Below are positions 3,828 to 48,062 of a stretch of 64,000 nt of DNA, one piece after another (the stretch's first letter is position 1; every line of letters starts with the position of its first letter). A program made the translations under genes and the position numbers. The stretch is from Rhizobium sp. N324. Its GTDB lineage: Bacteria > Pseudomonadota > Alphaproteobacteria > Rhizobiales > Rhizobiaceae. The stretch lies in NCBI RefSeq assembly GCF_001664485.1, contig NZ_CP013630.1:1119001-1183000 (forward strand), in the 5' to 3' direction. Under the pieces are notes generated by a model. It searched no databases, was not told the DNA's origin, and saw nothing but the letters and a program-made list of their open reading frames with translations.

Positions 3828-4472
3828 GTGCTCGGCAAGGTCTCGCGTCTCATCGTCTCCGCTTCTCTTCTTGCCCTGCTCGCCGGCTGCGACACGCTCG
3901 GCATCGGCGGCGACAGCAAGTCGGCGGCGGCGCCGGCGCAGCCGAACGGCACCGCCCAGATCATGCCGCTGGCACCCGCCAACCCATCCTCGAGCAATCC
4001 TTCGATCGGCACCGCCAAGACGGCACAGGGCACCGTCGCCCCCGTCGTCCAGGGCGCCTGCCCGCAGATCTTCATGCGCGACCAGGATGCGATCTTCCGC
4101 ACCTATGCCAAGGGCAAGAAGGACGATCCGCAGCAGATCGTCTTCCAGGCCTCCTTCGGCGATTACACCCGCCAGTGCTCGCTGAGCGACACCAACCTGA
4201 CGATGACCGTCGTCGCCCAGCTGCGCCTGATCACCGGCCCGGCCGGCGCCCCCGGCCCGGTGACCCTGCCGATCCGCGTCACCATCCTCGACGGCGAGAC
4301 CGTGCTCTATTCCGAGGTCACCAAATTCCCGACCGAGATCCCGGCCGGCGCCCCGGGCACCCAGGTGATCTTCCGCAAGGACGGCATCAAGATGCCGGTC
4401 GGCTCCGGCGCCCTGGTCCGCGTCAATGTCGGCTTCGACACCCAGCCGGCCAAGACCAAGAAGAACAGCTGA
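3828..4472 (+). CDS. predicted outer-membrane or periplasmic lipoprotein
   Basis: A protein of about 214 residues read from a GTG start, with a purine-rich GGGTGG 6 bp upstream. A short basic N-terminus (VLGKVSRL), a hydrophobic core and the lipobox LLAGC mark a lipoprotein signal. A low-complexity Ala/Pro/Gly-rich linker follows, then a globular domain with two cysteines near residues 80 and 115 and many hydrophobic beta-strand-like segments. I do not recognise a named family. A TTG at 3807 in the same frame is a less likely start. It is transcribed divergently from thrC across a gap of about 280 bp. Confidence 0.75.
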   Translation: MLGKVSRLIVSASLLALLAGCDTLGIGGDSKSAAAPAQPNGTAQIMPLAPANPSSSNPSIGTAKTAQGTVAPVVQGACPQIFMRDQDAIFRTYAKGKKDDPQQIVFQASFGDYTRQCSLSDTNLTMTVVAQLRLITGPAGAPGPVTLPIRVTILDGETVLYSEVTKFPTEIPAGAPGTQVIFRKDGIKMPVGSGALVRVNVGFDTQPAKTKKNS

Positions 4473-4492
4473 GGAAAGAAGTGCCCGCCCGC

Positions 4493-4720
4493 ATGGGTCC
4501 TCGGGTCAAGCCCGAGGACGACGGAGGGTGGAGGAATGCATGTGGCAAGGACCGCAGGCGCAGCGGTTTAGCGGAATTGGTGACCGTTATTTTGCCCGAT
4601 CCGCACGCAAAACCGCCCGCGCATTCTGCTGGAATTCCTCCAGGCATCTCGCCTCTTGCCGGTTGATCTCCCCACACTCCGTCATACTCGGGCTTGACCC
4701 GAGTATCCACGCCGCAAGCA
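4493..4720. repeat. composite palindromic repeat, inverted GGGTCAAGCCC ends
   Basis: The 322-bp gap between the lipoprotein and HAD genes holds this element and no convincing gene. It starts with the palindrome CCTCGGGTCAAGCCCGAGG followed by ACGACGGAGGGTGG, and ends about 200 bp later with the inverted counterpart (ACTCCGTCATACTCGGGCTTGACCCGAGT). The same end-to-end arrangement occurs at about 53.8, 54.6 and 55.2 kb, here in the opposite orientation and more diverged. Confidence 0.75.
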
Positions 4721-4794
4721 CTCCGCTGAATTTGTTCGGCGGCCGTCAACAGCTCGCCTGCATGGCCCCGCGAGGCGGGCTCAGCGCCTAAGCC

Positions 4795-5484
4795 CTAAAG
4801 CACGCCTTCCCAGGCAGCCAGCGCGGCGACGACGCCGGGCAGGTCGTTCATGCGGGAGATCGCCGTTTCGGCGCCGGCATCGGTCAGCTTGTCGGCATGG
4901 GCGGGATAGCTGTGCGAGGCGCCGGTGAAGCCGATGACGCGCATGCCGGCGGCGCGCGCTGCATGCACGCCGTGCACCGAATCCTCGACCACCACCACCT
5001 TGTCGGGCGACACGCCCATCTGGCTTGCGCCGTGCAGGAAGATGTCGGGCTTCGGCTTGGCCCGGTCGGGACCGAGATCCTTGGCGGAAAAGATATTCGG
5101 GGCAAACAGCGGCTTCAGCCCCACCTTGGAGAGCATCATGTCGAGCCGCTTCGTGCTCGAATTCGAGCATATGCAGCGCTTCATCGAGAGCCTTGAGACG
5201 GCGAATTCGACGCCTGGAATAGCCTTGACGTCATTCGCCAGCCTGGTGTCGAGCAGCTGCTCGGACTTCTCCAGCAGCGAGGCCGAAAACGGGATGCTCG
5301 CTTCGCGCTCGATCTGCAGCAGGATGTTGCGCCATGTCATGCCGGCGAAACGTTCGCCCATTTCCTCGACGCTGATCGGATATCCGGCCTCCGTCAGAAG
5401 CGCGGATTCGACTTCCGCGGCGATGATTTCGGAATCGACGAGAACGCCGTCGCAATCGAAGATGATGAGATCGAAGCCGTTCAT
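4795..5484 (-). CDS. HAD-superfamily phosphatase (phosphoglycolate phosphatase/beta-phosphoglucomutase-like)
   Basis: A 229-residue HAD hydrolase of subfamily I. The nucleophile motif DCDGVLVDSE is at residues 10-19, followed by a four-helix cap domain. Motif III is the lysine around KPKPDIFLH and motif IV is VVVEDSVHGVHAA. This layout is shared by Gph-, PgmB- and YieH-like enzymes acting on small phosphorylated metabolites. The substrate cannot be assigned. It stands alone, with a repeat downstream and a convergent neighbour only beyond that. Confidence 0.85.
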   Translation of the reverse strand: MNGFDLIIFDCDGVLVDSEIIAAEVESALLTEAGYPISVEEMGERFAGMTWRNILLQIEREASIPFSASLLEKSEQLLDTRLANDVKAIPGVEFAVSRLSMKRCICSNSSTKRLDMMLSKVGLKPLFAPNIFSAKDLGPDRAKPKPDIFLHGASQMGVSPDKVVVVEDSVHGVHAARAAGMRVIGFTGASHSYPAHADKLTDAGAETAISRMNDLPGVVAALAAWEGVL

Positions 5485-5640
5485 ATGTTCACGCCTTGCT
5501 ACAAATCTGGGCTGGAAATCTGGGTCTTGTCCGGGGATGCAGCGGCTTTACACGATGCCCGCCCAAAGCTCAACCTGATCTCAAGCATGGCTGCGATGCG
5601 GCAAGCGACCGGCTCCATGGTCGCTGCCGGATCGCTGCCG

Positions 5641-7455
5641 TCAAGCCGCCCGTCGTGCGAATTGCGCCGACGCCGTCGCGCGCAGCTTGAAGCGGGAAAC
5701 GAGTTCGCGCAGCTTGGCGGCTTCCTCAGCCAGGTGGCCGGATGCGGCGGTCGATTGTTCGACCATGGCCGCGTTTTGCTGGGTCACCTGATCCATCGAA
5801 TTGACGGCGGTGTTGACCTCGGCAAGGCCGGTCGACTGCTCCCTTGCCGATACGGCGATGGCATCCATGTGCTGGTTGATGCGGGCGATCTGTTCGCTGA
5901 TGGCGCTCAGCACCTGGCTGGTGTCGAGAACCAGCTTGACACCGCTTTCCACTTCCACCGAGGATTTCTGGATGTGGCCCTTGATTTCCTTTGCCGCCTG
6001 AGCCGAGCGCTGGGCGAGTTCGCGCACTTCCTGGGCGACCACTGCAAAGCCCTTGCCGGCTTCTCCAGCGCGCGCCGCTTCGACGCCGGCGTTCAGTGCC
6101 AGCAGATTGGTCTGGAAGGCGATTTCGTCGATCACGCCGATAATGCTGGAAATCTGCTGCGACGAGGCCTCGATGCGGCGCATGGCTTCTTCGGCATGCG
6201 AGACCACCTCCGCGGATTTGGCGGCATTGCGGTTGGCGTCCGTCGCTTCGGTGCGCGCCTCTTCGGTGCGCTTGCTGGAATTCGAGACATTGGCGGTGAT
6301 CTGATCGAGCGCCGCGGCGGTTTCTTCGAGAGCGGCGGCCTGCTGTTCGGTGCGTTTCGACAGATCGCCGGCCCCCGATGCAATTTCCCGCGTGCCTTCG
6401 TCGATTGCGGCAATGGCCGTCGCGATGGCGCCGAGCGTCTGGTCGAGCTGGCGGATCGACATGTTGAAATCATGCCGGAGGCTCTCGAAATCAGCCGCGA
6501 AAGGCTCCTCGATCTGGAAGGCGAGATCGCCCGAGGCAAGCCGCTTCAGGCCTGCGGCAAGGCCGGATGTCGCCGCCCGCAGCCGTGCGGCGACATCCTC
6601 GTCGGCCTGTTTGCGGGCGGTGACCCGCTCGCTTTCGCCCTGCAAGCGGGCAGTCTCGGCGTCCTGCTCGAGCTGCTTGTTGGCGATTGCCGCCTGCCGG
6701 AAGACCTCGACAGCCGATGCCATCGTGCCGATTTCATCGGTGCGGCCGATGCCAGCGCAGGCAATCGCCGTGTCGCCGCCGGCGAGCCTTTGCATATCGT
6801 TGGAAAGCGAAAGGATCGGCTTGGTGACGCTCCTTCGCGTCAGGAAATAAAGGCCGAAAGCGAACAACGCGGCCGCGGCCAGAAGGGCTTTGAGAGTGAT
6901 ATCGACCGAGGCTTTGATGTCGGCATTATGCTTGGAAATATCGTCCGATACGGCGGTGATCTGATCCCCGGCCTGTTCCATGGCGGTTTCCAATGTCGAG
7001 AACTGCTGCATGAATTCCGGCAGCGCCTTCAACGCTGCCGCCGGATCCTTGCCCGCAAGATCGACCATCTTCGTGGCGCTTTCCACATAGCCGAGCAGCG
7101 GACGCTCAATGTCGGCAAGGACCGCTTTCGTTTTTGCGTCGGAGACGAGGGCCTTGTTGGCGTCGATCATCTCGCGGAACGATGTCTCGTGCTCCGCCAG
7201 ATCCGCCTTCACCGCGGCGGCGTCTATGCCGGCCGCCGGGTTGGATGCCAGCAAGGATGCGAGCACGTCGGCGCGCAGCGCATCATGCATCATATCGGCC
7301 TGCATGTGGTTGCGCAGAATTTGCGCCGACTGGGCGACATCGGCGCTGTTTGCCGAAAGGGTGGCGGCAGACCAGATGCCGACGCCCGTCGCGCCGCCCG
7401 CCAACCCGAAAATCGCGATACTTGCAATGATAATCTTATGCTGGATCGACGGCAT
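5641..7455 (-). CDS. methyl-accepting chemotaxis protein
   Basis: A 604-residue transmembrane chemoreceptor. One membrane helix is near residues 10-32, followed by a helical periplasmic sensor of about 155 residues and a second membrane helix near residues 190-208. A HAMP domain and a linker with two amphipathic repeats come next, then the MCP signalling hairpin with its highly conserved tip [19 protein letters not shown]. It relays ligand binding to CheA/CheW. The C-terminus ends in FARRAA without an NWETF-type CheR/CheB docking pentapeptide. The ligand is unknown. No che genes are nearby, as is usual for scattered receptors. Confidence 0.93.
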
Positions 7456-7544
7456 GTCGGCTTCTCACGTTGAATTTGAGGCGTGATAGTATCGAAACAT
7501 GCTTAATGATTTCGTAGCGACCTCTCGCAAGGCGGCCGGCGAGG

Positions 7545-7576
7545 AAAAGGGCTCGCCGGTGTTCGCCGGCGAGCCC
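7545..7576 (-). terminator. rho-independent terminator
   Basis: An 11-bp GC-rich stem (GGGCTCGCCGG paired with CCGGCGAGCCC, 7549-7559 with 7566-7576) with a 6-nt loop. On the minus strand it is followed by TTTT. It lies 8 bp after the stop of the gene at 7584-8027 and should end that transcript. Confidence 0.75.
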
Positions 7577-7583
7577 ATCTAAC

Positions 7584-8027
7584 CTACTGCTCCGGCAGGA
7601 TGATCTTCTGATTGGTGGTATTCTTGACCGGCTTTTCGCCGGGGACATGCGACATGGTCCGGGTCGTGCTTTCCAGCGCGCTGCCATCGGTGCTGGTCTT
7701 GGTGCGGGATTTGCTGAACGTGCCTTTGTCGACGGCCTGGGCTTTGGTTTGCGCCTTGAGCTTGTCGCCATTGTCGTTGACATGGGTTTTGCTCTGCGCT
7801 TTGCCGTCGACGGTGGCGGCACTTCCCCCCGACCCGATCGAGGAGGTGGTGCCGCCATCGGTCCGGCAGGTGCCGGCGGTTCCGACTGAGCTTGCCGAGG
7901 TGCCGCCGGCCGAAGCGCTTCCGCCCGACCCCACCGTCCCGGCCGCAATGCAATCCTCTGCAAGAACCGCCGAACTCGACGCGAGCAGCGCGATCGAGGC
8001 GGCTGCGATAAGGTTGAGATGTGTCAT
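7584..8027 (-). CDS. small exported protein with degenerate VGSGGSA repeats
   Basis: A 147-residue protein with a clear Sec signal peptide ending in VLAED. The N-terminal part of the mature chain holds three diverged copies of a (T/S)(V/I)G(S/T)GGSA motif rich in Gly, Ser and Thr, plus two cysteines. The C-terminal half is polar, lysine- and threonine-rich and free of cysteine. No known domain is recognised. It is the last of three same-strand genes for exported low-complexity proteins (9006 down to 7584), and a terminator follows it directly. Only 9 bp separate it from the gene before. Confidence 0.6.
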   Translation of the reverse strand: MTHLNLIAAASIALLASSSAVLAEDCIAAGTVGSGGSASAGGTSASSVGTAGTCRTDGGTTSSIGSGGSAATVDGKAQSKTHVNDNGDKLKAQTKAQAVDKGTFSKSRTKTSTDGSALESTTRTMSHVPGEKPVKNTTNQKIILPEQ

Positions 8028-8036
8028 TGTCCTCTC

Positions 8037-8381
8037 CTATTTCGTCGGTTTCGTCACGGAGCAGGTTCCGTCGGAACGTTTGGTGATGACGGTGCCGTCA
8101 GGCCTTGTGATGCTTGCCGTCGAAAAACTGTCGACGCTTCCCGATCCCGCCGAGGAGCCGGCGGAGGCGGATGACGACGAGGAGCCGGCCGAGCCGCTGC
8201 CTGTTGTGGTCGACGAAGACACGTGTCCGTTGCCGGCCGTCACGGTGGTCGACATATCGCCTGCCTGCGACTGGACGATCGTGCATGTCGTTCCGTCGTC
8301 GAGCTTGATTTCCTCGGCCATCGCATGCCCGAAGACCAGCACCAGCGAGGCGCTCAGTGCGATTGTGGAAAGTTGGGTCAT
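8037..8381 (-). CDS. small exported Ser/Gly-rich protein
   Basis: A 114-residue protein starting MTQLSTIALS, with a signal peptide ending near GHAMA. After a short segment containing one cysteine (DDGTTCTIVQ) comes a Ser/Gly/Ala/Thr low-complexity stretch (about residues 55-90). It ends in a compact RPDGTVITKRSDGTC tail with a second cysteine. An ATG was chosen that gives a proper signal peptide; the frame is open further upstream, but that part is arginine/alanine-rich and lies opposite the next gene. Function unknown. It sits between two genes for proteins of similar composition. Confidence 0.55.
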   Translation of the reverse strand: MTQLSTIALSASLVLVFGHAMAEEIKLDDGTTCTIVQSQAGDMSTTVTAGNGHVSSSTTTGSGSAGSSSSSASAGSSAGSGSVDSFSTASITRPDGTVITKRSDGTCSVTKPTK

Positions 8382-8433
8382 TGTCCTATCTCCAAGGGTT
8401 TGGCCGACGCCGCAAAGGCGCCGGCCGATAGCG

Positions 8434-9006
8434 TCAGCAGCCCTTGGTGCCGGCGGCGTCCTTCTTGACCTGGCCCGGCGCGCAGCCCTTCTTGCCCTTG
8501 CTGTCGTGCGAGGTTCCGGCAGCACTGCCGCCGGTGCCGACGGTGCTGCCCGTCTTGTCGCCGTCCGCAGAGGAAGCGCCGGTTCCGACACTCGAGGCGG
8601 AGTTCGCATCGCCCGAGCCTGCGGCGGAACCGCCGGTGCCGACCGAGCTGCTGGACGTGCCGCCGCCGGCCGAGGAACCGCCCGTGCCGAGCGTCGAGGC
8701 AGAACCCGAACCGGATCCGGAGCCCGCGGCCGAGCCGCCGGTGCCGACGGTGCTGCTCGAGGTGCCGCCACCAGCCGACGAGCCGCCGGTGCCGATCGTC
8801 GAGGACGAGCCGGAATTGCAATTGGTTGCGCCAGCGGGGCAGGTGCCCCCGGCAGAGCTGCCACCAGTACCGACCGTGCTGCTCGCAGTTCCGCCGCCGG
8901 CCGACGAACCGCCGGTGCCAACCGTGCTTGACGATTGCGCGAAGCCGGAAACGGTCGTGCCGGCCAGCAAGGCCGCAGCCAAGGCGAGATGGGTTACCTT
9001 CATCAT
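8434..9006 (-). CDS. exported protein with eight VGTGGSSAG-type repeats
   Basis: A 190-residue protein with a signal peptide ending at SGFAQ. The mature chain is almost entirely made of about eight copies of (S/T)(V/I/L)GTGGS(S/A)AG joined by short Gly/Ser/Thr linkers. One linker between copies two and three has a CPAGATNC cysteine pair. The C-terminus changes to a charged, lysine-rich segment with two more cysteines (KKGCAPG, TKGC). A GGAGG lies 8 bp before the first of two adjacent ATGs. I recognise no named family. Extracellular or periplasmic location is inferred from the signal peptide. Confidence 0.65.
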   Translation of the reverse strand: MMKVTHLALAAALLAGTTVSGFAQSSSTVGTGGSSAGGGTASSTVGTGGSSAGGTCPAGATNCNSGSSSTIGTGGSSAGGGTSSSTVGTGGSAAGSGSGSGSASTLGTGGSSAGGGTSSSSVGTGGSAAGSGDANSASSVGTGASSADGDKTGSTVGTGGSAAGTSHDSKGKKGCAPGQVKKDAAGTKGC

Positions 9007-40824: not shown

Positions 40825-40898
40825 TGGGGCGTCGCCAAGCGGTAAGGCAACGGTTTTTGGTACCGTCATCCCTGGTTCGAATCCAGGCGCCCCAGCCA
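40825..40898 (+). tRNA. tRNA-Gln (anticodon TTG)
   Basis: A 74-nt cloverleaf including an encoded CCA. The acceptor stem TGGGGCG pairs with CGCCCCA. The anticodon stem ACGGT/ACCGT encloses the loop TTTTGGT with anticodon TTG, reading CAA. The T-arm is CCTGGTTCGAATCCAGG. It marks the left edge of the AT-richer island that continues to about 47.2 kb. Confidence 0.95.
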
Positions 40899-40973
40899 TG
40901 ATTTTTTGAAACAAAATGTTGAAATTTGCAAAATCCCCTCGAGTTGGTGCGGGTAGTTCGCTATTATGCTTCT

Positions 40974-42158
40974 ATGAAGCACGAATCTCTCTCAACGCTG
41001 CCCCACTCTCTTCGCGTCGTAAGTTTATTTAGTGGAATAGGAGGCTTCGAAGTTGGTTTGCATCGAGCCGGTCATAAAACCGTATTTATGTGTGAGAGCG
41101 ATCCGTATGCACAACAAGTGCTGCGTAATCGATTTCCAGAGACAGAACTTCATTCCGACGTCACTCGCCTTTCAAGCTTACCCGCCTGCGATTTGGTGAC
41201 TGCTGGTTGGCCCTGCCAAGATATAAGTCTCGCTGGAACAACCTCAGGACTCGCGGGAACGCGCTCGGGGCTGATCGAGGAAGTGTTTCGGTTGGTGGGG
41301 AACATGCCGAAAAAGCCCGCCTACATTCTTCTTGAGAATGTCGCGTTCGCAGTTGAGTTGCGTAAGGGCGAAGCCATTAGGTATGTAACTGAGAGACTTG
41401 AGCAGCTTGGCTACGATTGGGCGTATAGAATTCTCGACACTCGGCTCTTCGGTCTGCCGCAGCGGCGCAGGAGGCTCTATGTACTGGCTTCTAGGGTCGG
41501 CGATCCATCTCAACTCATCTTCGACGGCGCCGCTGCCTCTATGGCTGGTCCCAACGCCGAGGCAAGGAAGGTCGGTTTCTATTGGACAGAGGGCAACAGG
41601 GGAACCGGATGGTCACCTGACGCTCTGCCCCCCCTTAAAGGTGGATCCACTGTAGGCATTCCTTCCCCGCCTGCGGTTTGGGACAGAGATAATGGAAGCT
41701 TCTTTCAGCCTGGGATTGAGGATGCGGAGCGTCTACAAGGCTTCATACCAGGGTGGACTGAAGCAGCGACTTCAATCCCCCGCGGGGAGCGAAAGCGGTG
41801 GATGCTTGTAGGAAATGCTGTGAGCGTCCCCGTTGCAGAATGGATTGGGAGAAGGCTAGCAGTTGACGGCATATCATCGCCCGGGGATCTTCAAAATCTG
41901 AGGCGGTCCGAAAAGGAATTCGCAAGGGCCGGCAAGAAGACAGCTGGAGCATCGCGGCAGTTTTTTGAACCGACCAGCGAAGGCCCTGCCGACTGCCACG
42001 TTGTTACGTTGGATGATTTTGGCTTCAAGCAGCCGAAGGCTCTTTCGGCTCGCGCGTTGGCTGGGTTCACTTCAAGGTTTGAAGCGGCCCCGCTCAAAAA
42101 GCATCCTGATTTTCTACGAGACCTGCGGCAAGCCCTACAGGGAGTGGCACCACATTAA
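40974..42158 (+). CDS. DNA cytosine-5 methyltransferase
   Basis: A 394-residue C5 methyltransferase. Motif I (SLFSGIGGFEVGLHRAG) binds AdoMet, motif IV AGWPCQD carries the catalytic Cys81, motif VI is ENVAF, motif VIII is QRRRRLY, and motif X is GNAVSVPVAEWIG. The variable target-recognition region lies about residues 190-240. The C-terminal 90 residues are an unusual extension. It is AT-richer than the core genes. Its 3' end overlaps the convergent HEPN gene by 65 bp. The nearby vsr fragments suggest the methylated site was one that Vsr repairs. Confidence 0.92.
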   Translation: MKHESLSTLPHSLRVVSLFSGIGGFEVGLHRAGHKTVFMCESDPYAQQVLRNRFPETELHSDVTRLSSLPACDLVTAGWPCQDISLAGTTSGLAGTRSGLIEEVFRLVGNMPKKPAYILLENVAFAVELRKGEAIRYVTERLEQLGYDWAYRILDTRLFGLPQRRRRLYVLASRVGDPSQLIFDGAAASMAGPNAEARKVGFYWTEGNRGTGWSPDALPPLKGGSTVGIPSPPAVWDRDNGSFFQPGIEDAERLQGFIPGWTEAATSIPRGERKRWMLVGNAVSVPVAEWIGRRLAVDGISSPGDLQNLRRSEKEFARAGKKTAGASRQFFEPTSEGPADCHVVTLDDFGFKQPKALSARALAGFTSRFEAAPLKKHPDFLRDLRQALQGVAPH

Positions 42159-42819
42159 GGTAGCCCCGATTTGTTTGGTATTCTTCGAGCGCTGTCACAT
42201 ATGACGTCATGAAGCGGCTGACTCGTCCTAGGATGTCGAGTAGTTCCTTTGCTGTAATGGCTGATCCCGCCTCTTCAAATGTCTCCAGCCCGTGCGCCAA
42301 GGCATTGCGGCGTTTTCGGATGTTCTCAAGGTCAGCCCCGCCCAGCGTGCCGGCAGGTGCGCCCCAATTCAGACCTAATACGTCCTTGAACCGGAAAACG
42401 TGATCTTGCCCAAAATTTCCGCTAAAAGGAAGCCTCTCTCGCTCTGATTCCGTCCATTGCAGGATATTAGCCGCTAGTGGAGCAATGTTTGTCAGAATAG
42501 TTCCGTGGCTAAACCCGTCCTGCATCTTCTTTAAAAATTTCGCTTGAAGTATATCGAGTCTCCAGTATTCAGAGACAGCGTGAAATTGAAGGTTTTCTTG
42601 CTCTATCGAACTCCTCATCGATTCGAACACTTCTCGCATCGCGGATTCTATTGCATTATACATCATAACGTAAGCAGATGCCCGCGAGGCGGCGACGAGC
42701 CGGCTTCGTTGCAGGTGGGACCGCGGGTTTGATTTTAGTCGCTTTTCCATATCCCTTAAGGTCTCAAGAACCTGTTTGATATCTTCAAATCTGCGTGTCA
42801 TCTCAGGGAGAGCGCTCAT
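42094..42819 (-). CDS. HEPN-domain protein (MAE_28990/MAE_18760-like)
   Basis: A 241-residue, mainly helical protein. The HEPN catalytic signature R-x4-H is intact at residues 171-176 (RNALAH), the hallmark of HEPN ribonucleases found in toxin and defence systems. The N-terminal part (LVAASRASAYVMMYNAIESAMREVFE) is the paired helix typical of the MAE_28990 group. The group is often encoded next to DUF262 proteins, as here. Its start overlaps the stop of the upstream small ORF by 4 bp. It is probably the RNA- or nucleic-acid-cleaving effector of the island. Confidence 0.8.
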   Translation of the reverse strand: MSALPEMTRRFEDIKQVLETLRDMEKRLKSNPRSHLQRSRLVAASRASAYVMMYNAIESAMREVFESMRSSIEQENLQFHAVSEYWRLDILQAKFLKKMQDGFSHGTILTNIAPLAANILQWTESERERLPFSGNFGQDHVFRFKDVLGLNWGAPAGTLGGADLENIRKRRNALAHGLETFEEAGSAITAKELLDILGRVSRFMTSYVTALEEYQTNRGYLNVVPLPVGLAAGLVENQDAF

Positions 42820-43076
42820 GCCACACCTAACAACTTATCTCGGACGAATTCGACACGGCTACGCAGTCTTGGACCACTGTTGCTAGCGTCGGTGCGGATC
42901 ATCTGGAGGAAATCAGGGTGATCTAACCAATCAAAGTTCTGCGCTTGCAAGTTCGGCTCTTGTCGCAGCGCTAGGCATGTCCCAACCGACACCGCTTCAA
43001 ACCTAACTCTGGGAACTTGTGTGCTGTTGCCTGGGCGGAAGAAAGCGCGCGGCGAAGCTGCGTTTATGAAAGCCAT
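42816..43076 (-). CDS. C-terminal part of a frameshifted DUF262 protein
   Basis: An 86-residue open frame starting MAFINAASPRAFFR. Its segment STQVPRVRFEAVSVGTCLAL and the ending SRVEFVRDKLLG look like the C-terminal end that usually closes DUF262 proteins. It overlaps the preceding DUF262 frame by 13 bp and is read one base back from it. Either a single frameshift split one gene of about 350 residues, or the two parts are now translated separately. No slippery heptamer is evident in the overlap. Confidence 0.55.
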   Translation of the reverse strand: MAFINAASPRAFFRPGNSTQVPRVRFEAVSVGTCLALRQEPNLQAQNFDWLDHPDFLQMIRTDASNSGPRLRSRVEFVRDKLLGVA

Positions 43077-43882
43077 ACCGAGTTGAATTCGGTAGACTTT
43101 GCAGCGATAGCTGCATCATCCAGTTGGGCGTTGAATTCTCTGAAGTAGCGATCGAGAAATTTGCGCACGTCATGTGAAAATTCGGTATAGCGGTCGCTAT
43201 ATATGAAAAAGCGCGTCACAAGCTCTTGCCGTTCGCTTTCGGGGTTCTGATTGCCCCGAGAGCCCGTTCCGGGCGCTAGATTTCGGAATGCCGGTCGATT
43301 TGCGCAGTCGAGTACGAGGTTCAGAAAGGGTCCCTGGTAGGCTCCCTTTCTGATCTCAGCCTCGCTCAATTGTTTGGAAGACGTATTGACGCGTCGAAAC
43401 AATTCGATCCTTGCACTCTGGTCAGTACCCTCTTCGAGCACGAATGAGCGAATCGGACTGTTGAGGAAACGCTTTCTGATAACGCCTGGAATATCGCTGA
43501 ACCGAAGGCCATTCAGTGCGTCAAGCTTCTCAAGGCCGGTGAGTTTGAACTCATTATTTGTAAAGCCAACGAGGGTGCGAATGCGTTGCGAACCGTCCAC
43601 GAGTTCCAAGCTACCGCCTACCTCATAAAAGAATACCGGGGGAACCGGAATACGGAGCATCAAGCTTTCTATAAAGTAGGATTTTCGCTCGTCATCCCAC
43701 TGAAGTGACCGTTGATAGTCGGGGATATAAATATCACCCTCTGATGGGTCTTCCTCCTTGTAGCGGCGTATTAGTGTTTCGACCGGGTAATCCGTCACGA
43801 GGTATCGAATTTCATTGCGCGCATCTTCAACGCTGCGCTGGATTTCAGCGTCGGTGACTTTTGTATTATCGGTCAATGTCAT
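43064..43882 (-). CDS. DUF262 (ParB-like) protein, truncated by frameshift
   Basis: A 272-residue protein with the DUF262 core: IPDYQRSLQWDDERKSYFIESLMLRIPVPP, then the ParB/sulfiredoxin-like motif DGSQR at residues 96-100 and the later FRRVNTSSKQLSEAEIRKGAYQG. DUF262 proteins such as GmrS use this fold to bind or hydrolyse nucleotides in modification-dependent restriction. There is no DUF1524 nuclease part; instead a HEPN gene follows. The C-terminus appears to continue in another frame from 43076. Confidence 0.85.
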   Translation of the reverse strand: MTLTDNTKVTDAEIQRSVEDARNEIRYLVTDYPVETLIRRYKEEDPSEGDIYIPDYQRSLQWDDERKSYFIESLMLRIPVPPVFFYEVGGSLELVDGSQRIRTLVGFTNNEFKLTGLEKLDALNGLRFSDIPGVIRKRFLNSPIRSFVLEEGTDQSARIELFRRVNTSSKQLSEAEIRKGAYQGPFLNLVLDCANRPAFRNLAPGTGSRGNQNPESERQELVTRFFIYSDRYTEFSHDVRKFLDRYFREFNAQLDDAAIAAKSTEFNSVWLS

Positions 43883-43958
43883 CCCTCATTTTCTCTCTCT
43901 CGTCTTTATTACATAGAATGATTTTATTTACTTCAGGTTGATTTTTGGTGTGCTGCTA

Positions 43959-44146
43959 TCAAAAGCCTCTGGCATGGGTGACGGTTGAGACGATTGCATC
44001 GACGATATCGTCAGCCACTTGGTGTTCCCAGAACCTCAGTACCGTCCAGCCAAATTGCGCGAGCACTTCCCTAGTTTCAACGTCGCGCTCCCGATTCCTA
44101 TTGATCTTGCTCAGCCAAAACTCCGGGTTTTTTCTTACAATGGTAG
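43959..44146 (-). pseudogene. vsr: vsr, 3' fragment (split by an IS3 element)
   Basis: The C-terminal 60 or so codons of a very-short-patch-repair endonuclease: KNPEFWLSKINRNRERD, then LAQFGWTVLRFWEHQ, the typical Vsr ending. The other part of the gene lies at 45419-45660. Removing the IS and one copy of the GTAG duplication joins the two parts exactly in frame (..CPEHST/IVRKNPEFW..). Confidence 0.88.
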
Positions 44147-44210
44147 TGACCTTGCCCCGTCGAGATAATCCATTTTGAAGTAAGCTCTGGCCCATTGAGA
44201 GGACCAGAGA

Positions 44211-44477
44211 ATGAAGCGCAACCGTTTCACAGACGAACAGATCATCGGGATTCTGAAGGAGCACGAGGCTGGCACGCCGGTCTTGGAGCTTTGCCGCAAA
44301 CACGGTGTCAGCGATGCCAGCATCTATAAATGGAAAGCGAAGTTCGGCGGCATGGAAGTGTCGGAAGCCAAACGGCTGAAGACGCTGGAGGACGAAAACA
44401 CAAAGCTGAAGCGGCTTCTGGCAGATGCCATGCTCGACAATGCCGCTTTGAAAGACCTTTTGGGAAAGAAGTGGTGA
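44211..44477 (+). CDS. IS3-family transposase OrfA
   Basis: An 88-residue protein with a helix-turn-helix ([17 protein letters not shown], then [22 protein letters not shown]) and a leucine-zipper-like tail ending LKDLLGKKW. It binds the element's ends. A -1 frameshift near its end would fuse it to OrfB. Confidence 0.92.
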
Positions 44478-45400
44478 CGCCCGCAGCAAAGCGGCGAGCT
44501 GTCGCGCATCTGGTTGATCAACATCAGATGAGCGAACGGCGGGCGTGTAAAGCCATCGGCTATTGTCGGATGACGATCCGTTACGAAACCAGGCGCGGTG
44601 ACGACCATGACCTTCGCGATCGGATGAAGGCGCTGGCCCATGAACGCCGCCGCTTTGGCTATCGACGTCTTCATGTGCTGCTCAGACGTGAGGGACATCT
44701 TGTGAACCACAAGCGGCTCTTCCGGCTCTATCGAGAGGAAAAGCTGGCCGTGCGCAAGCGCGGCGGCCGCAAGCGAGCGATAGGCACACGAGCGCCGATG
44801 CTGATCCCGATGGCAGCCAATGATCGCTGGTCGTTGGACTTCGTGTCGGATCAGTTCACCGATGGGCGCAGGTTCCGAGTGCTGACCGTGGTCGATGATT
44901 GCACCAGGGAGTGCCTGGCGCTCGTCGCCGATACGTCCCTTTCCGGCCTGCGGGTTGCTCGTGAGTTGGACCGGATCATCGAGGGGCGAGGCAAACCGAA
45001 GATGATCGTCAGCGACAATGGCAGTGAGTTCACCAGCAACGCGATCCTGCAATGGACGGATCGGACCAAGGTGGAATGGCACTACATCGCGCCCGGCAAG
45101 CCGATCCAGAACGCCTTCATCGAAAGCTTCAATGGGCGGCTGCGAGACGAGTTCCTGAATGAAACGCTCTTCTCGTCACTGGCGTATGCTCGGTCAGCGC
45201 TTTCAAACTGGTGCAGCGATTACAACGATCATCGACCGCATTCCGGCCTCGGCTGGCTGACACCGGCCGAGTTCGCCCAGACCATCAACCCGCGACGTGA
45301 TGCGGTGCTGCGCAGCCGGAATGGCTCCGCACCGCAACCCGCCGCTACCGCCGCAAATACAGCAACCCAAAACCGTCGGAGCGAACTCAAAACTGGATAA
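44474..45400 (+). CDS. IS3-family transposase OrfB (DDE integrase)
   Basis: An rve-type integrase of about 308 residues. The DDE triad is intact: [21 protein letters not shown] and [12 protein letters not shown]. The frame stays open upstream to 44330, overlapping OrfA by about 150 bp, as needed for a programmed -1 frameshift giving the OrfAB transposase. The start given (GTG in [10 protein letters not shown]) is nominal. No interruption is seen, so the element may be active. Confidence 0.9.
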
Positions 45401-45418
45401 AACTTGGGGGCAAGGTCA

Positions 45419-45660
45419 GTAGAATGCTCTGGACACCCGTGCCAGAAGCAACCGTCAAGGAAGATTGCAATTTTCAGCCGGGGAAAAGCGATGTCGCAAC
45501 TCCGCCTTTTGAGATTCGGGAGTGAGTAGTTGACTCGGTATCGCAGACCGATCGCATAAAGACGAGTGCGGATATTCTGCTCGAACGAATTATCTTTCCC
45601 CCGTGTCCGTTGCATTCGCTTACGGACGGAAGGGGCGGTCTCATATGAGCTTTGCGTCAT
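45419..45660 (-). pseudogene. vsr: vsr, 5' fragment (split by an IS3 element)
   Basis: The N-terminal 79 codons of a Vsr endonuclease: SVRKRMQRTRGKDNSFE, then the zinc- and catalysis-related FLDGCFWHGCPEH, after which the frame enters the IS. Vsr nicks at T:G mismatches made by deamination of 5-methylcytosine, and is normally paired with a C5 methyltransferase such as the one at 40974. The disrupted gene is unlikely to be functional. Confidence 0.88.
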
Positions 45661-45728
45661 CGTTCCAGTCGCTCCGTGGACTCCCATCGGAAGTCAATGC
45701 ATGGCAAAAAGCACTGTTCCACATTGTA

Positions 45729-47183
45729 TCATGAGCGATTGTTAGAGCCCGCCACGCCGCCAACTTCATCGGCAAAATATGAATCCGAGAAGCCGTATTC
45801 GGTTTTAAGGAAGTGGCGCGCAAGGGCGTGGATAATCTCCGCAGCGGAGTGGAGCCGTCGAATTTCGAGAGATGCGTCGGCATCGGAAGGAAACTCCTCG
45901 GAAGCGTGCGCCGTAGCGACGCGGCAATTATCGAAGACGTATTTTTGAACGTCCTTTCCATTTCGCGCTTCCTCGAAGCGCTTCATCACCTCCGGCGCGA
46001 GCGTCGCAGCGACAGTGTTAAAGACATTTCGGATCCAGATCTTCGTCGGGTTAGGTGTACGCCCATCGGACTTTACCCGTCGCTCGAAGACCTTGAAAAA
46101 GCTGAGCACTGCGAATGTCACCAGCCCGGCTTCACGAGCGTTGAGGCCTTCGCGATAATAGGCCAGTCGTTGAAGAAGTTCAGGGTCGTCGGGAAGCGAC
46201 CGAGAGAATAACCATTGGCCGGCAATCGTGCCGCCTTTCCCGTATTGGCGGATCGGCACTGGTACCGGGTTGCCCGACCATCCATCGCCGAGGACGGCAT
46301 GCTGATCTTGGCACCAGCTTAAAATGCTTAGAAAGCGATTCAGCAGCGTGCGTGCGTCTTCAATGGAGAGACGTTCGGCCGTAAGGTCAATGCTGATCGA
46401 GCGTGTATTGTCCTTGGTCTTTGGAAATAAAACGAAGCGGTGGCCCGCGAACTCAACGCGGGTCGGATCCCCCGGCCATGCAACGGCGGTGTCGACCGGC
46501 AAGTTCAGAAAGCGTGAGTTCGGACGCGCTCCCAAACTTTTATGAAATGCGTCCCTTTCCTCTTCGTTTTCATATTCTGTCCAGTTGGTCTTCAGAGGGA
46601 GATCAAGCTGGCGGGAGAGAACGACCTCCTTCCTGAGGCGCAGAAAGAAGTCTCGCCCGAGCGCAAGCTGCCGCGCCGACGGAGTACGGATTCGATCGTG
46701 GTCGTACCGCTGCTCTGCGCCGTCGATCAGAAGAGATATCGCCATTTTGGAGATATATGAGACTGTCTTCCTATTCCCTCCTTGATCGAAGACCGCTCGG
46801 GCATAGTACTCGTCACTGTTGTCGCTTCGTTCGATAATGAAGGTCATCGCGACGAGTGAGTTGCAGGCTTCATTGCTAGAGAGAACGGCGGCGACGGTGT
46901 CGAGTAGAGTTGCCGAAGCCTGAAAGGAGGCGTTCGCACCCCCGACAGCACAGAGGCCGCCGAGGCACAGCGATACGTGGCCTGCCCACCCCGGCGATAC
47001 AGGAACGAAGCCGAGCACTGCGCTCGCGATCTGCCTGTCATTTAGGCGTGTCGCCGCAGTCTCGCGGCCACGCGGAAGAAGGCCGTGTCCCCGCAGGTGC
47101 TCAAATCTTTTAAGCGTATCGTGGAACGGATCAGGCCGGGCAAGCGCGGCATGGAGAATTTGCGAAAGGCTTTTGGCGTACAT
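45729..47183 (-). CDS. hypothetical 484-residue protein of the accessory island
   Basis: A long protein without signal peptide or membrane segments. It has an N-terminal region of about 140 residues with aromatic and glycine-rich stretches, a middle with NWTEYENEEERDAFHKSLG, and a helical C-terminal part (MKRFEEARNGKDVQKYVFDNCRVATAHASEEFP). The last segment, with R-x2-x-AHA and a following helix, weakly recalls MauJ-like or HEPN-related C-termini. It is AT-richer than core genes and lies directly upstream of vsr on the same strand. I do not recognise the family. Confidence 0.7.
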   Translation of the reverse strand: MYAKSLSQILHAALARPDPFHDTLKRFEHLRGHGLLPRGRETAATRLNDRQIASAVLGFVPVSPGWAGHVSLCLGGLCAVGGANASFQASATLLDTVAAVLSSNEACNSLVAMTFIIERSDNSDEYYARAVFDQGGNRKTVSYISKMAISLLIDGAEQRYDHDRIRTPSARQLALGRDFFLRLRKEVVLSRQLDLPLKTNWTEYENEEERDAFHKSLGARPNSRFLNLPVDTAVAWPGDPTRVEFAGHRFVLFPKTKDNTRSISIDLTAERLSIEDARTLLNRFLSILSWCQDQHAVLGDGWSGNPVPVPIRQYGKGGTIAGQWLFSRSLPDDPELLQRLAYYREGLNAREAGLVTFAVLSFFKVFERRVKSDGRTPNPTKIWIRNVFNTVAATLAPEVMKRFEEARNGKDVQKYVFDNCRVATAHASEEFPSDADASLEIRRLHSAAEIIHALARHFLKTEYGFSDSYFADEVGGVAGSNNRS

Positions 47184-47282
47184 ATCGACTTGATATCGCC
47201 TATGGCCCGATCAAGCCAAATACTTTGTGTCCGGGGGACGGGCAAACATCGAGCGGGAACGCCCACTAACCCGTCTTGCGCC

Positions 47283-48062
47283 TTACCGGCCCTCTTCGAA
47301 CAGCCGAACCCCAGTCAACTCCGCCAGCCTCCCCACCAACCCATCCTGAAACCCCGGATCACCAACCTCCGCCGCCGCTTCGCGCTGCTGCCGATGATAC
47401 CAATACCCACCACTCACCTTGGCGGCGTCATCATCGCTCGTCGCCAGCCACGTCTGCGTGAGATGCCCCATCTCCAGGTCATCCGGCGCGCCGGCGCCGC
47501 CCATCTTGGTCGGCACCCAGCCGGGGTCGACGGCGTTGCTGAAGACGTCCGGCCAGTGGCGGGCGAGGGCGGCGGCGAGGGTGGCGATGTAGAGCTTGCT
47601 TTCCGAATAGGCCTGGCTGGCGTTCCATGGCCGCCGCTTCCAGTCGATATCGTCAAGGGCGCTGCCGCCGCTGCGGTGCATGCCGCTCGTGAGATAGATC
47701 AGGCGGTCGGGGCGGGTGATCCAGGCGGTGAGGAGGTAGGGGGCGAGCACGTTGACTGCCAGCGTCTTGGCGTGGCCTTCCGGCGTTTCGCCGCGGCTTC
47801 TTTCGAGATAGATGCCGGCATTGTGGATGATGGCGTCCATGCGGCCGATGGCGTTGACCTGCTCGGCAATGGAGCGCGTTTCGGCGGCGCTGGCGAGATC
47901 GCCGATGACGAGGCCGAGGGCGGCGCCTGATGTGTCTGCGATGGCGATGGCGCGCTCGCGGGAGCGGGCGTGGAGGACGACGTCGTGGCCTTGGCCGATG
48001 AGGGTGCGGGCGGCGGCAAGCCCGAGGCCATCGGTGGAACCGGTGATGAAGATGCTGCTCAT
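47283..48062 (-). CDS. short-chain dehydrogenase/reductase
   Basis: A 259-residue SDR. The cofactor loop is ITGSTDGLGLAAA, the NNAG-like motif is IIHNAGIY, the catalytic serine is in YLTSGMH and the YxxxK pair is YSESK. The C-terminal region after residue 190 (WVPTKMGGAGAPDD) is typical of oxidoreductases annotated as retinol-dehydrogenase-like or general SDRs. The substrate is unknown. It marks the return to high-GC core DNA after the island. Confidence 0.85.
   Translation of the reverse strand: MSSIFITGSTDGLGLAAARTLIGQGHDVVLHARSRERAIAIADTSGAALGLVIGDLASAAETRSIAEQVNAIGRMDAIIHNAGIYLERSRGETPEGHAKTLAVNVLAPYLLTAWITRPDRLIYLTSGMHRSGGSALDDIDWKRRPWNASQAYSESKLYIATLAAALARHWPDVFSNAVDPGWVPTKMGGAGAPDDLEMGHLTQTWLATSDDDAAKVSGGYWYHRQQREAAAEVGDPGFQDGLVGRLAELTGVRLFEEGR

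Follow-up and report, generated by a model that had tools for sequence, protein, structure and literature searches.

Do the genes that directly follow a tRNA-Gln on the chromosome of Rhizobium sp. N324 form a single system, and if so, what kind of system is it? The window (the whole stretch analyzed, 64,000 nucleotides of contig NZ_CP013630.1, positions 1,119,001 to 1,183,000 of the forward strand; coordinates below are window positions) carries there a C5-cytosine DNA methyltransferase, a HEPN protein, a DUF262 protein, and a vsr gene. A first-pass annotation made from the letters alone had described an AT-richer gene set after the tRNA with the methyltransferase on one strand and the others opposite, and ARAGORN, GC bins, and Pfam matches confirmed that description: GC content was 0.49–0.57 in 1-kb bins from 41 to 47 kb vs 0.63–0.70 at 38–41 and 47–50 kb, with a few other bins of the window also down to 0.56. 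The genes are real, and these four belong together as one cassette, of which the Rhizobium copy is a decayed remnant. That the intact cassette is a methylation-guarded phage defense composed of a DUF262 sensor and a HEPN RNase is a reading to which we give an even chance.

The methyltransferase lies on the forward strand at 40974–42158 in an open frame (PF00145, 2.5e-44). Its ATG at 40974 is a likelier start than the TTG at 40926 where the open reading frame (ORF) begins, judged by eye against the homologous locus of Sinorhizobium meliloti pSymA (L004). The PCQ and ENV motifs could be read from the translation, and the nearest solved relatives are M.HhaI/M.HaeIII. On the reverse strand, a MAE_28990-type HEPN gene occupies 42094–42819, also open, and passes both PF18737 (3e-9; 37.8 bits, cut-off 26.8) and PF18735 (1.2e-8; 35.5 bits, cut-off 28.4). 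Its final 65 bases overlap the end of the methyltransferase, and the R and H of its R171-x4-H176 motif were invariant in 25/25 aligned sequences.

The other two cassette genes, both on the reverse strand, are broken. About three quarters of the DUF262 protein, including the PxYQR and VDGSQR motifs, is encoded in a first frame at 43064–43882 that stops at 43064 (GmrSD_N/DUF262, 3.1e-23; profile positions 10–271 of 360), and the remainder sits in another frame at 42816–43076 (profile 271–358 of 360), the stop of which overlaps the HEPN start. Both halves of vsr match Vsr profiles: the N-terminal piece at 45419–45687 (in ORF 45229–45687; PF03852, 1.6e-13) and the C-terminal piece at 43959–44142, its inner edge approximate (TIGR00632, 6.1e-10; profile 79–118 of 119). 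Between them is a forward-strand insertion sequence (IS) of the IS3 family of ~1.27 kb at about 44147–45418 (transpos_IS3 7.4e-73, HTH_Tnp_1, rve), with orfA at 44211–44477, the transposase at 44330–45400, and a 4-bp target duplication at 44143–44146 and 45419–45422 (ends read by eye). The first-pass annotation had named the gene families correctly but missed the frame split in DUF262 and the IS within vsr. A query of 44147–45412 found five further full-length matches in the genome, all on contig C4 and all rounding to 100% identity, for a total of six full-length copies with the one on C1, the contig of the window. These near-identical copies indicate a recent insertion, and the element likely moved from the C4 replicon to the chromosome. 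With the sensor and vsr broken and the methyltransferase and HEPN left, the locus now probably gives no defense.

Conservation of the cassette was evaluated in several collections. In all, 755 plasmid records had a DUF262 match, and nine among the 30 listed were opened (L004, L005, L007–L013): HEPN adjoined DUF262 in 9/9 and a C5 methyltransferase was found by profile in all except L007. Cassette profiles were built from these nine loci and the window, and a scan of IMG/VR using conserved DUF262 words, blind to neighboring genes, gave 78 loci. We defined the window clade as loci with a best DUF262 match of at least 330 bits plus five named split or truncated loci (the window, L074, L188, L193, and L196). 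After a duplicate of L005 (L089) and short copies of genomic loci had been dropped, the clade comprised 91 loci in 65 clusters at 90% identity, 50 of which were eligible for counting with at least 1500 bases upstream and at least 2200 downstream. HEPN was present directly downstream of DUF262 in 50/50 eligible clusters, the C5 methyltransferase in 45/50, and vsr in 8/50, counting the window's split vsr. Representatives were chosen with a preference for complete loci, and a neutral choice left the counts unchanged (50, 50, 45, 8). With loci left unmerged, 73 were eligible, 73 with HEPN, 68 with the methyltransferase, and 8 with vsr. The DUF262 and HEPN genes were tightly packed in 54/54 measured cases. 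Three loci with DUF262 in two frames kept an open HEPN, and a split HEPN was found in 0/91 loci. L170 also had a small N-terminal DUF262 match (4361–4783) ~1.1 kb upstream of its main frame (5887–6936), perhaps another interrupted copy. The co-occurrence that the first-pass annotation asked about therefore holds for DUF262, HEPN, and the methyltransferase and sometimes for vsr; it is not supported for the 484-residue gene that it had listed with them. In the DUF262 tree the window grouped with L004, L122 (from IMG/VR), and L074 with support of 100; vsr was present in three of these four, and the L074 contig ends 725 bases upstream.

The methyltransferase is a property of the window clade, not of DUF262-HEPN pairs generally. 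PF18737 searches of 397 genomes of the order and 398 of the phylum each returned 14 loci other than the window's own, in which DUF262 adjoined HEPN by profile in 12/14 and 11/14, respectively. Profiles found no DUF262 beside HEPN in L076, which begins at a contig start, L081, or L101–L103, which are below the PF18737 cut-off. Four of the 23 DUF262-HEPN loci fell in the window clade (L074, L087, L095, and L100), three of them with a C5 methyltransferase, and a profile search of stretches of 9 to 16.5 kb found a C5 methyltransferase in 0/19 loci outside it. The profile was built from cassette enzymes but did catch other C5 enzymes too (second copy in L087, L209, L210, L215).

Among the 55 clusters of the clade having a methyltransferase, it was convergent downstream in 40, same-strand downstream in 8, and upstream in 7, and its position changed at least four times on the DUF262 tree. 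The window enzyme shared 50–55% identity with its counterparts in L004, L122, and L074 vs 25–28% over 176–204 residues with those in L005, L088, L095, and L140. In the methyltransferase tree, the four enzymes of the window's group plus those of L200, L124, and L095 fell outside the main group, each on a long branch. Distances agreed more closely between DUF262 and HEPN (Mantel rho 0.735, 52 trios) than between DUF262 and the methyltransferase (0.334); 0/999 permutations reached either value, and the permutations leave shared ancestry in. From these sequence comparisons, widely diverged C5 methyltransferases appear to have been exchanged under the same sensor-effector pair, with "two or three lineages" the safe wording because branches are long and some nodes have modest support. 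The eligible loci without a methyltransferase, together with L201, formed one clade (SH-aLRT 99), outside of which linkage of DUF262 and methyltransferase was 45/45. Members of that clade without a C5 methyltransferase match in the stretch examined were L007, L100, L177, L182, L190, and L201, the last on a contig too short to tell; a host enzyme such as Dcm might conceivably substitute there. In two further loci, L231 (phage P2_4B2, 2340–3179 and 1997–2404) and L164, the methyltransferase was in two frames with DUF262 and HEPN open; elsewhere there are intact copies.

The cassette is widespread and mobile, and often on prophages and plasmids. All four genes recur in S. meliloti pSymA (L004), pTi932 (L005), and the IMG/VR contigs L122, L133, and L176. 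Cassettes with open frames were found in P2-like and lambdoid prophages of Escherichia coli isolates: in strain NH-21 it sits in a P2-like prophage with portal genes on one side and replication genes on the other, and in WCHEC020032 it neighbors an antiterminator Q gene in a different prophage. Two phages, P2_4B2 and Moraxella phage Mcat25, also carry it. Of 5426 E. coli genomes, 204 had a match to at least part of the cassette DNA from Klebsiella, some through the methyltransferase alone, and 9 matched at least 80% of it.

In Rhizobium sp. N324 the cassette occupies a variable slot (40899–47270) between the forward-strand tRNA-Gln (TTG) predicted by ARAGORN at 40825–40898, its left border, and an SDR gene. 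We searched both flanks in 26 genomes and found them on one contig in four relatives (G056, G020, G002, and G059), with 88–96% identity that ended at 40898–40908 and resumed at 47270–47284; the DNA between the flanks of these four had no match to the window island. The right flank is not universal, since the two flanks were on separate contigs in a fifth relative (G066) and the SDR relative (71–74%) was on a different contig in the more distant G040, G048, and G013. The slot is defense-prone and variable, with unrelated cargo of lower GC in each of the four relatives (slots L224–L227), where N6-methylase, type I specificity, and AAA_21 genes were observed in L227 and a PIN-domain gene in L225; 4/9 scanned cargo ORFs had no Pfam match. 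No integrase was found among the Pfam-scanned island ORFs, the IS transposase being the sole exception, and a tRNA-end repeat looked for at the slot was not found.

The island also holds the 484-residue protein (45729–47183, reverse strand), which had been called unknown. It matches PF17419 (MauJ) with 54.3 bits vs a cut-off of 28. Among 335 database matches, 59 of the 120 listed were aligned to it, and in the resulting set R421, A423, and H426 were invariant in 60/60; this R421-x4-H426 motif falls in a predicted helical region (334–462). The C-terminal part may thus be termed HEPN-like, with fold and profile comparisons stopping short of proof. The gene was present in 1/148 genomes of the genus, that of N324 itself, and among the matches listed the protein was 92% identical to one named as Rhizobium laguerreae and 89% to one named as Rhizobium leguminosarum. 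Profiles found no cassette genes in four other contexts of this gene (L002, L003, L006, and the 5.6-kb L228), so we treat it as a separate neighbor. The L003 copy is itself split into two ORFs, and in L002 (an Agrobacterium plasmid, 5393–8773) a VPA1262-family gene is divergent beside the homolog.

How might an intact cassette work? The intact DUF262 relative from L122 had a predicted ParB/BrxU-like fold without the nuclease end: it aligned with the nucleotide-binding proteins ParB/Noc, and its alignment with BrxU extended no further than residue 417. Pfam found no DUF1524 in nine island ORFs or three intact DUF262 relatives, no recognized nuclease domain in the window DUF262 pieces or those same relatives, and no endonuclease domain except Vsr among the scanned island ORFs. 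With no recognized nuclease domain in the DUF262 protein, the effector is likely HEPN, and methylation likely marks self. The proposal that a DUF262 sensor drives HEPN in place of DUF1524, with methylation marking self, fits this anatomy given the missing DUF1524, the predicted fold, and the invariant HEPN motif. The C5 methyltransferase would mark the cell's own DNA, and the DUF262 protein, as a nucleotide-binding DNA sensor, would meet foreign DNA without the mark, change state with nucleoside triphosphate (NTP), and then license the product of the gene immediately downstream, a HEPN RNase that would cut RNA and halt the infected cell. Vsr functions in the repair of deaminated 5-methylcytosine, and where present it would repair T:G mismatches arising from methylated cytosines. 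The sequences show gene content, linkage, the state of the frames, the motifs, and a predicted fold; from these we infer what is read by the sensor, the role of HEPN as effector with RNA as its target, and phage defense as the outcome. Since two or three diverged methyltransferase lineages pair with the same sensor and effector, the module would need the mark and not a particular enzyme. We tentatively suggest, at less than even confidence, that this is restriction-modification (R-M) logic with RNA cleavage as the restriction step, running from an unmethylated site through an NTP-gated ParB-like sensor to the HEPN RNase. In a Type II R-M system, every locus that retains the attacking genes would be expected to retain the methyltransferase as well; the 45/45 linkage outside one clade agrees with this, and that clade and the two split methyltransferases do not.

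The same genes could be arranged differently. In a conventional R-M system with a second line, the ParB-like DUF262 protein would be the DNA nuclease and HEPN a back-up suicide RNase if restriction fails, a logic that Anantharaman et al. (2013, PMC3710099) propose for R-M systems linked to HEPN. The window DUF262 had a weak match (2.5e-11) to a Type II restriction enzyme model of PADLOC, but the lack of a nuclease domain by Pfam and the alignment of the model with ParB/Noc, and with BrxU in part, make this unlikely. We consider it quite unlikely that the system is type IV-like, with DUF262 sensing modified cytosine in phage DNA like GmrSD/BrxU and firing HEPN, and with the methyltransferase tuned to an ignored site or serving another purpose. 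DUF262 relatives of known biochemistry do read modified DNA (PMC10952713), yet a sensor of C5 modification with a C5 methyltransferase next to it would risk attacking its own cell, and the two are linked throughout the clade outside one subclade.

Tight packing of DUF262 and HEPN, and the commonness of HEPN toxins with antitoxins (general knowledge; PMC3710099), would suit a toxin-antitoxin pair with DUF262 as the antitoxin and the methyltransferase as a hitch-hiker. Against this, DUF262 was found split beside an open HEPN in three loci and HEPN was split in none of the 91, and the methyltransferase linkage is very regular, leaving this reading very improbable. That unrelated island genes gathered by chance at a tRNA hotspot is extremely improbable: cargo of unrelated kinds does accumulate in this slot in relatives, the 484-residue gene being such a neighbor, but the four-gene set recurs on the plasmids and IMG/VR contigs named above. 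For the DUF262-HEPN-methyltransferase core, chance is refuted by recurrence in dozens of non-redundant loci.

Parts of this architecture were already known. The 2013 HEPN survey tabulated MAE_28990 "in operon with a ParB nuclease and DNA methylase genes" (PMC3710099), and the window likewise has a PF18737 HEPN with R-x4-H, an adjoining ParB-fold protein (DUF262, the fold predicted on L122), and a DNA methylase (PF00145). The survey calls ParB a nuclease, whereas the cassette DUF262 has no recognized nuclease domain, and its entry for MAE_28990 gives no C5-only clade, separate vsr gene, or prophage hotspot. PD-T4-2, a DUF262 protein with a PF18735 HEPN (PMC10952713), is the other known pair, and T4 plaquing rose when it was deleted from its native strain (Vassallo et al. 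2022, PMC9519451). The cassette pairs DUF262 with HEPN in the same way, and the window HEPN passes PF18735 though PF18737 scores higher; unlike PD-T4-2, the cassette carries a C5 methyltransferase. In PADLOC, PD-T4-2_A (1.1e-23) was second to NsnA (1.6e-54) for the window DUF262, and NsnA also fit better in ten scanned relatives. The window HEPN matched no PADLOC family at E up to 0.1, in a library that may lack a model for the PD-T4-2 HEPN. The cassette shares the DUF262 ParB/Srx-like fold and DG-x-QR motif with GmrSD, BrxU, and SspE (type IV, phosphorothioate-dependent), but has no detected DUF1524 nuclease and instead a HEPN partner and linked C5 methyltransferase. Like dcm-vsr and Type II systems it places a C5 methyltransferase alongside Vsr, but with DUF262-HEPN in place of a recognized restriction endonuclease. 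New within the searches made are the contrast between a C5-linked clade and the remaining pairs that lack C5 enzymes, the swapping of these enzymes alongside a single sensor-effector pair, the addition of vsr, the settings in prophages and at a tRNA hotspot, and a copy in Rhizobium observed in the course of decay.

If the proposed wiring is true, the distinction of self from non-self through DNA methylation would be connected directly to RNA cleavage, R-M and abortive infection would be joined in one three-gene unit, and the sensing target of DUF262 proteins would become testable. Natural breakages such as that in the window, where the sensor is broken with the methyltransferase and HEPN open, would then offer a way to trace that wiring through patterns of gene loss.

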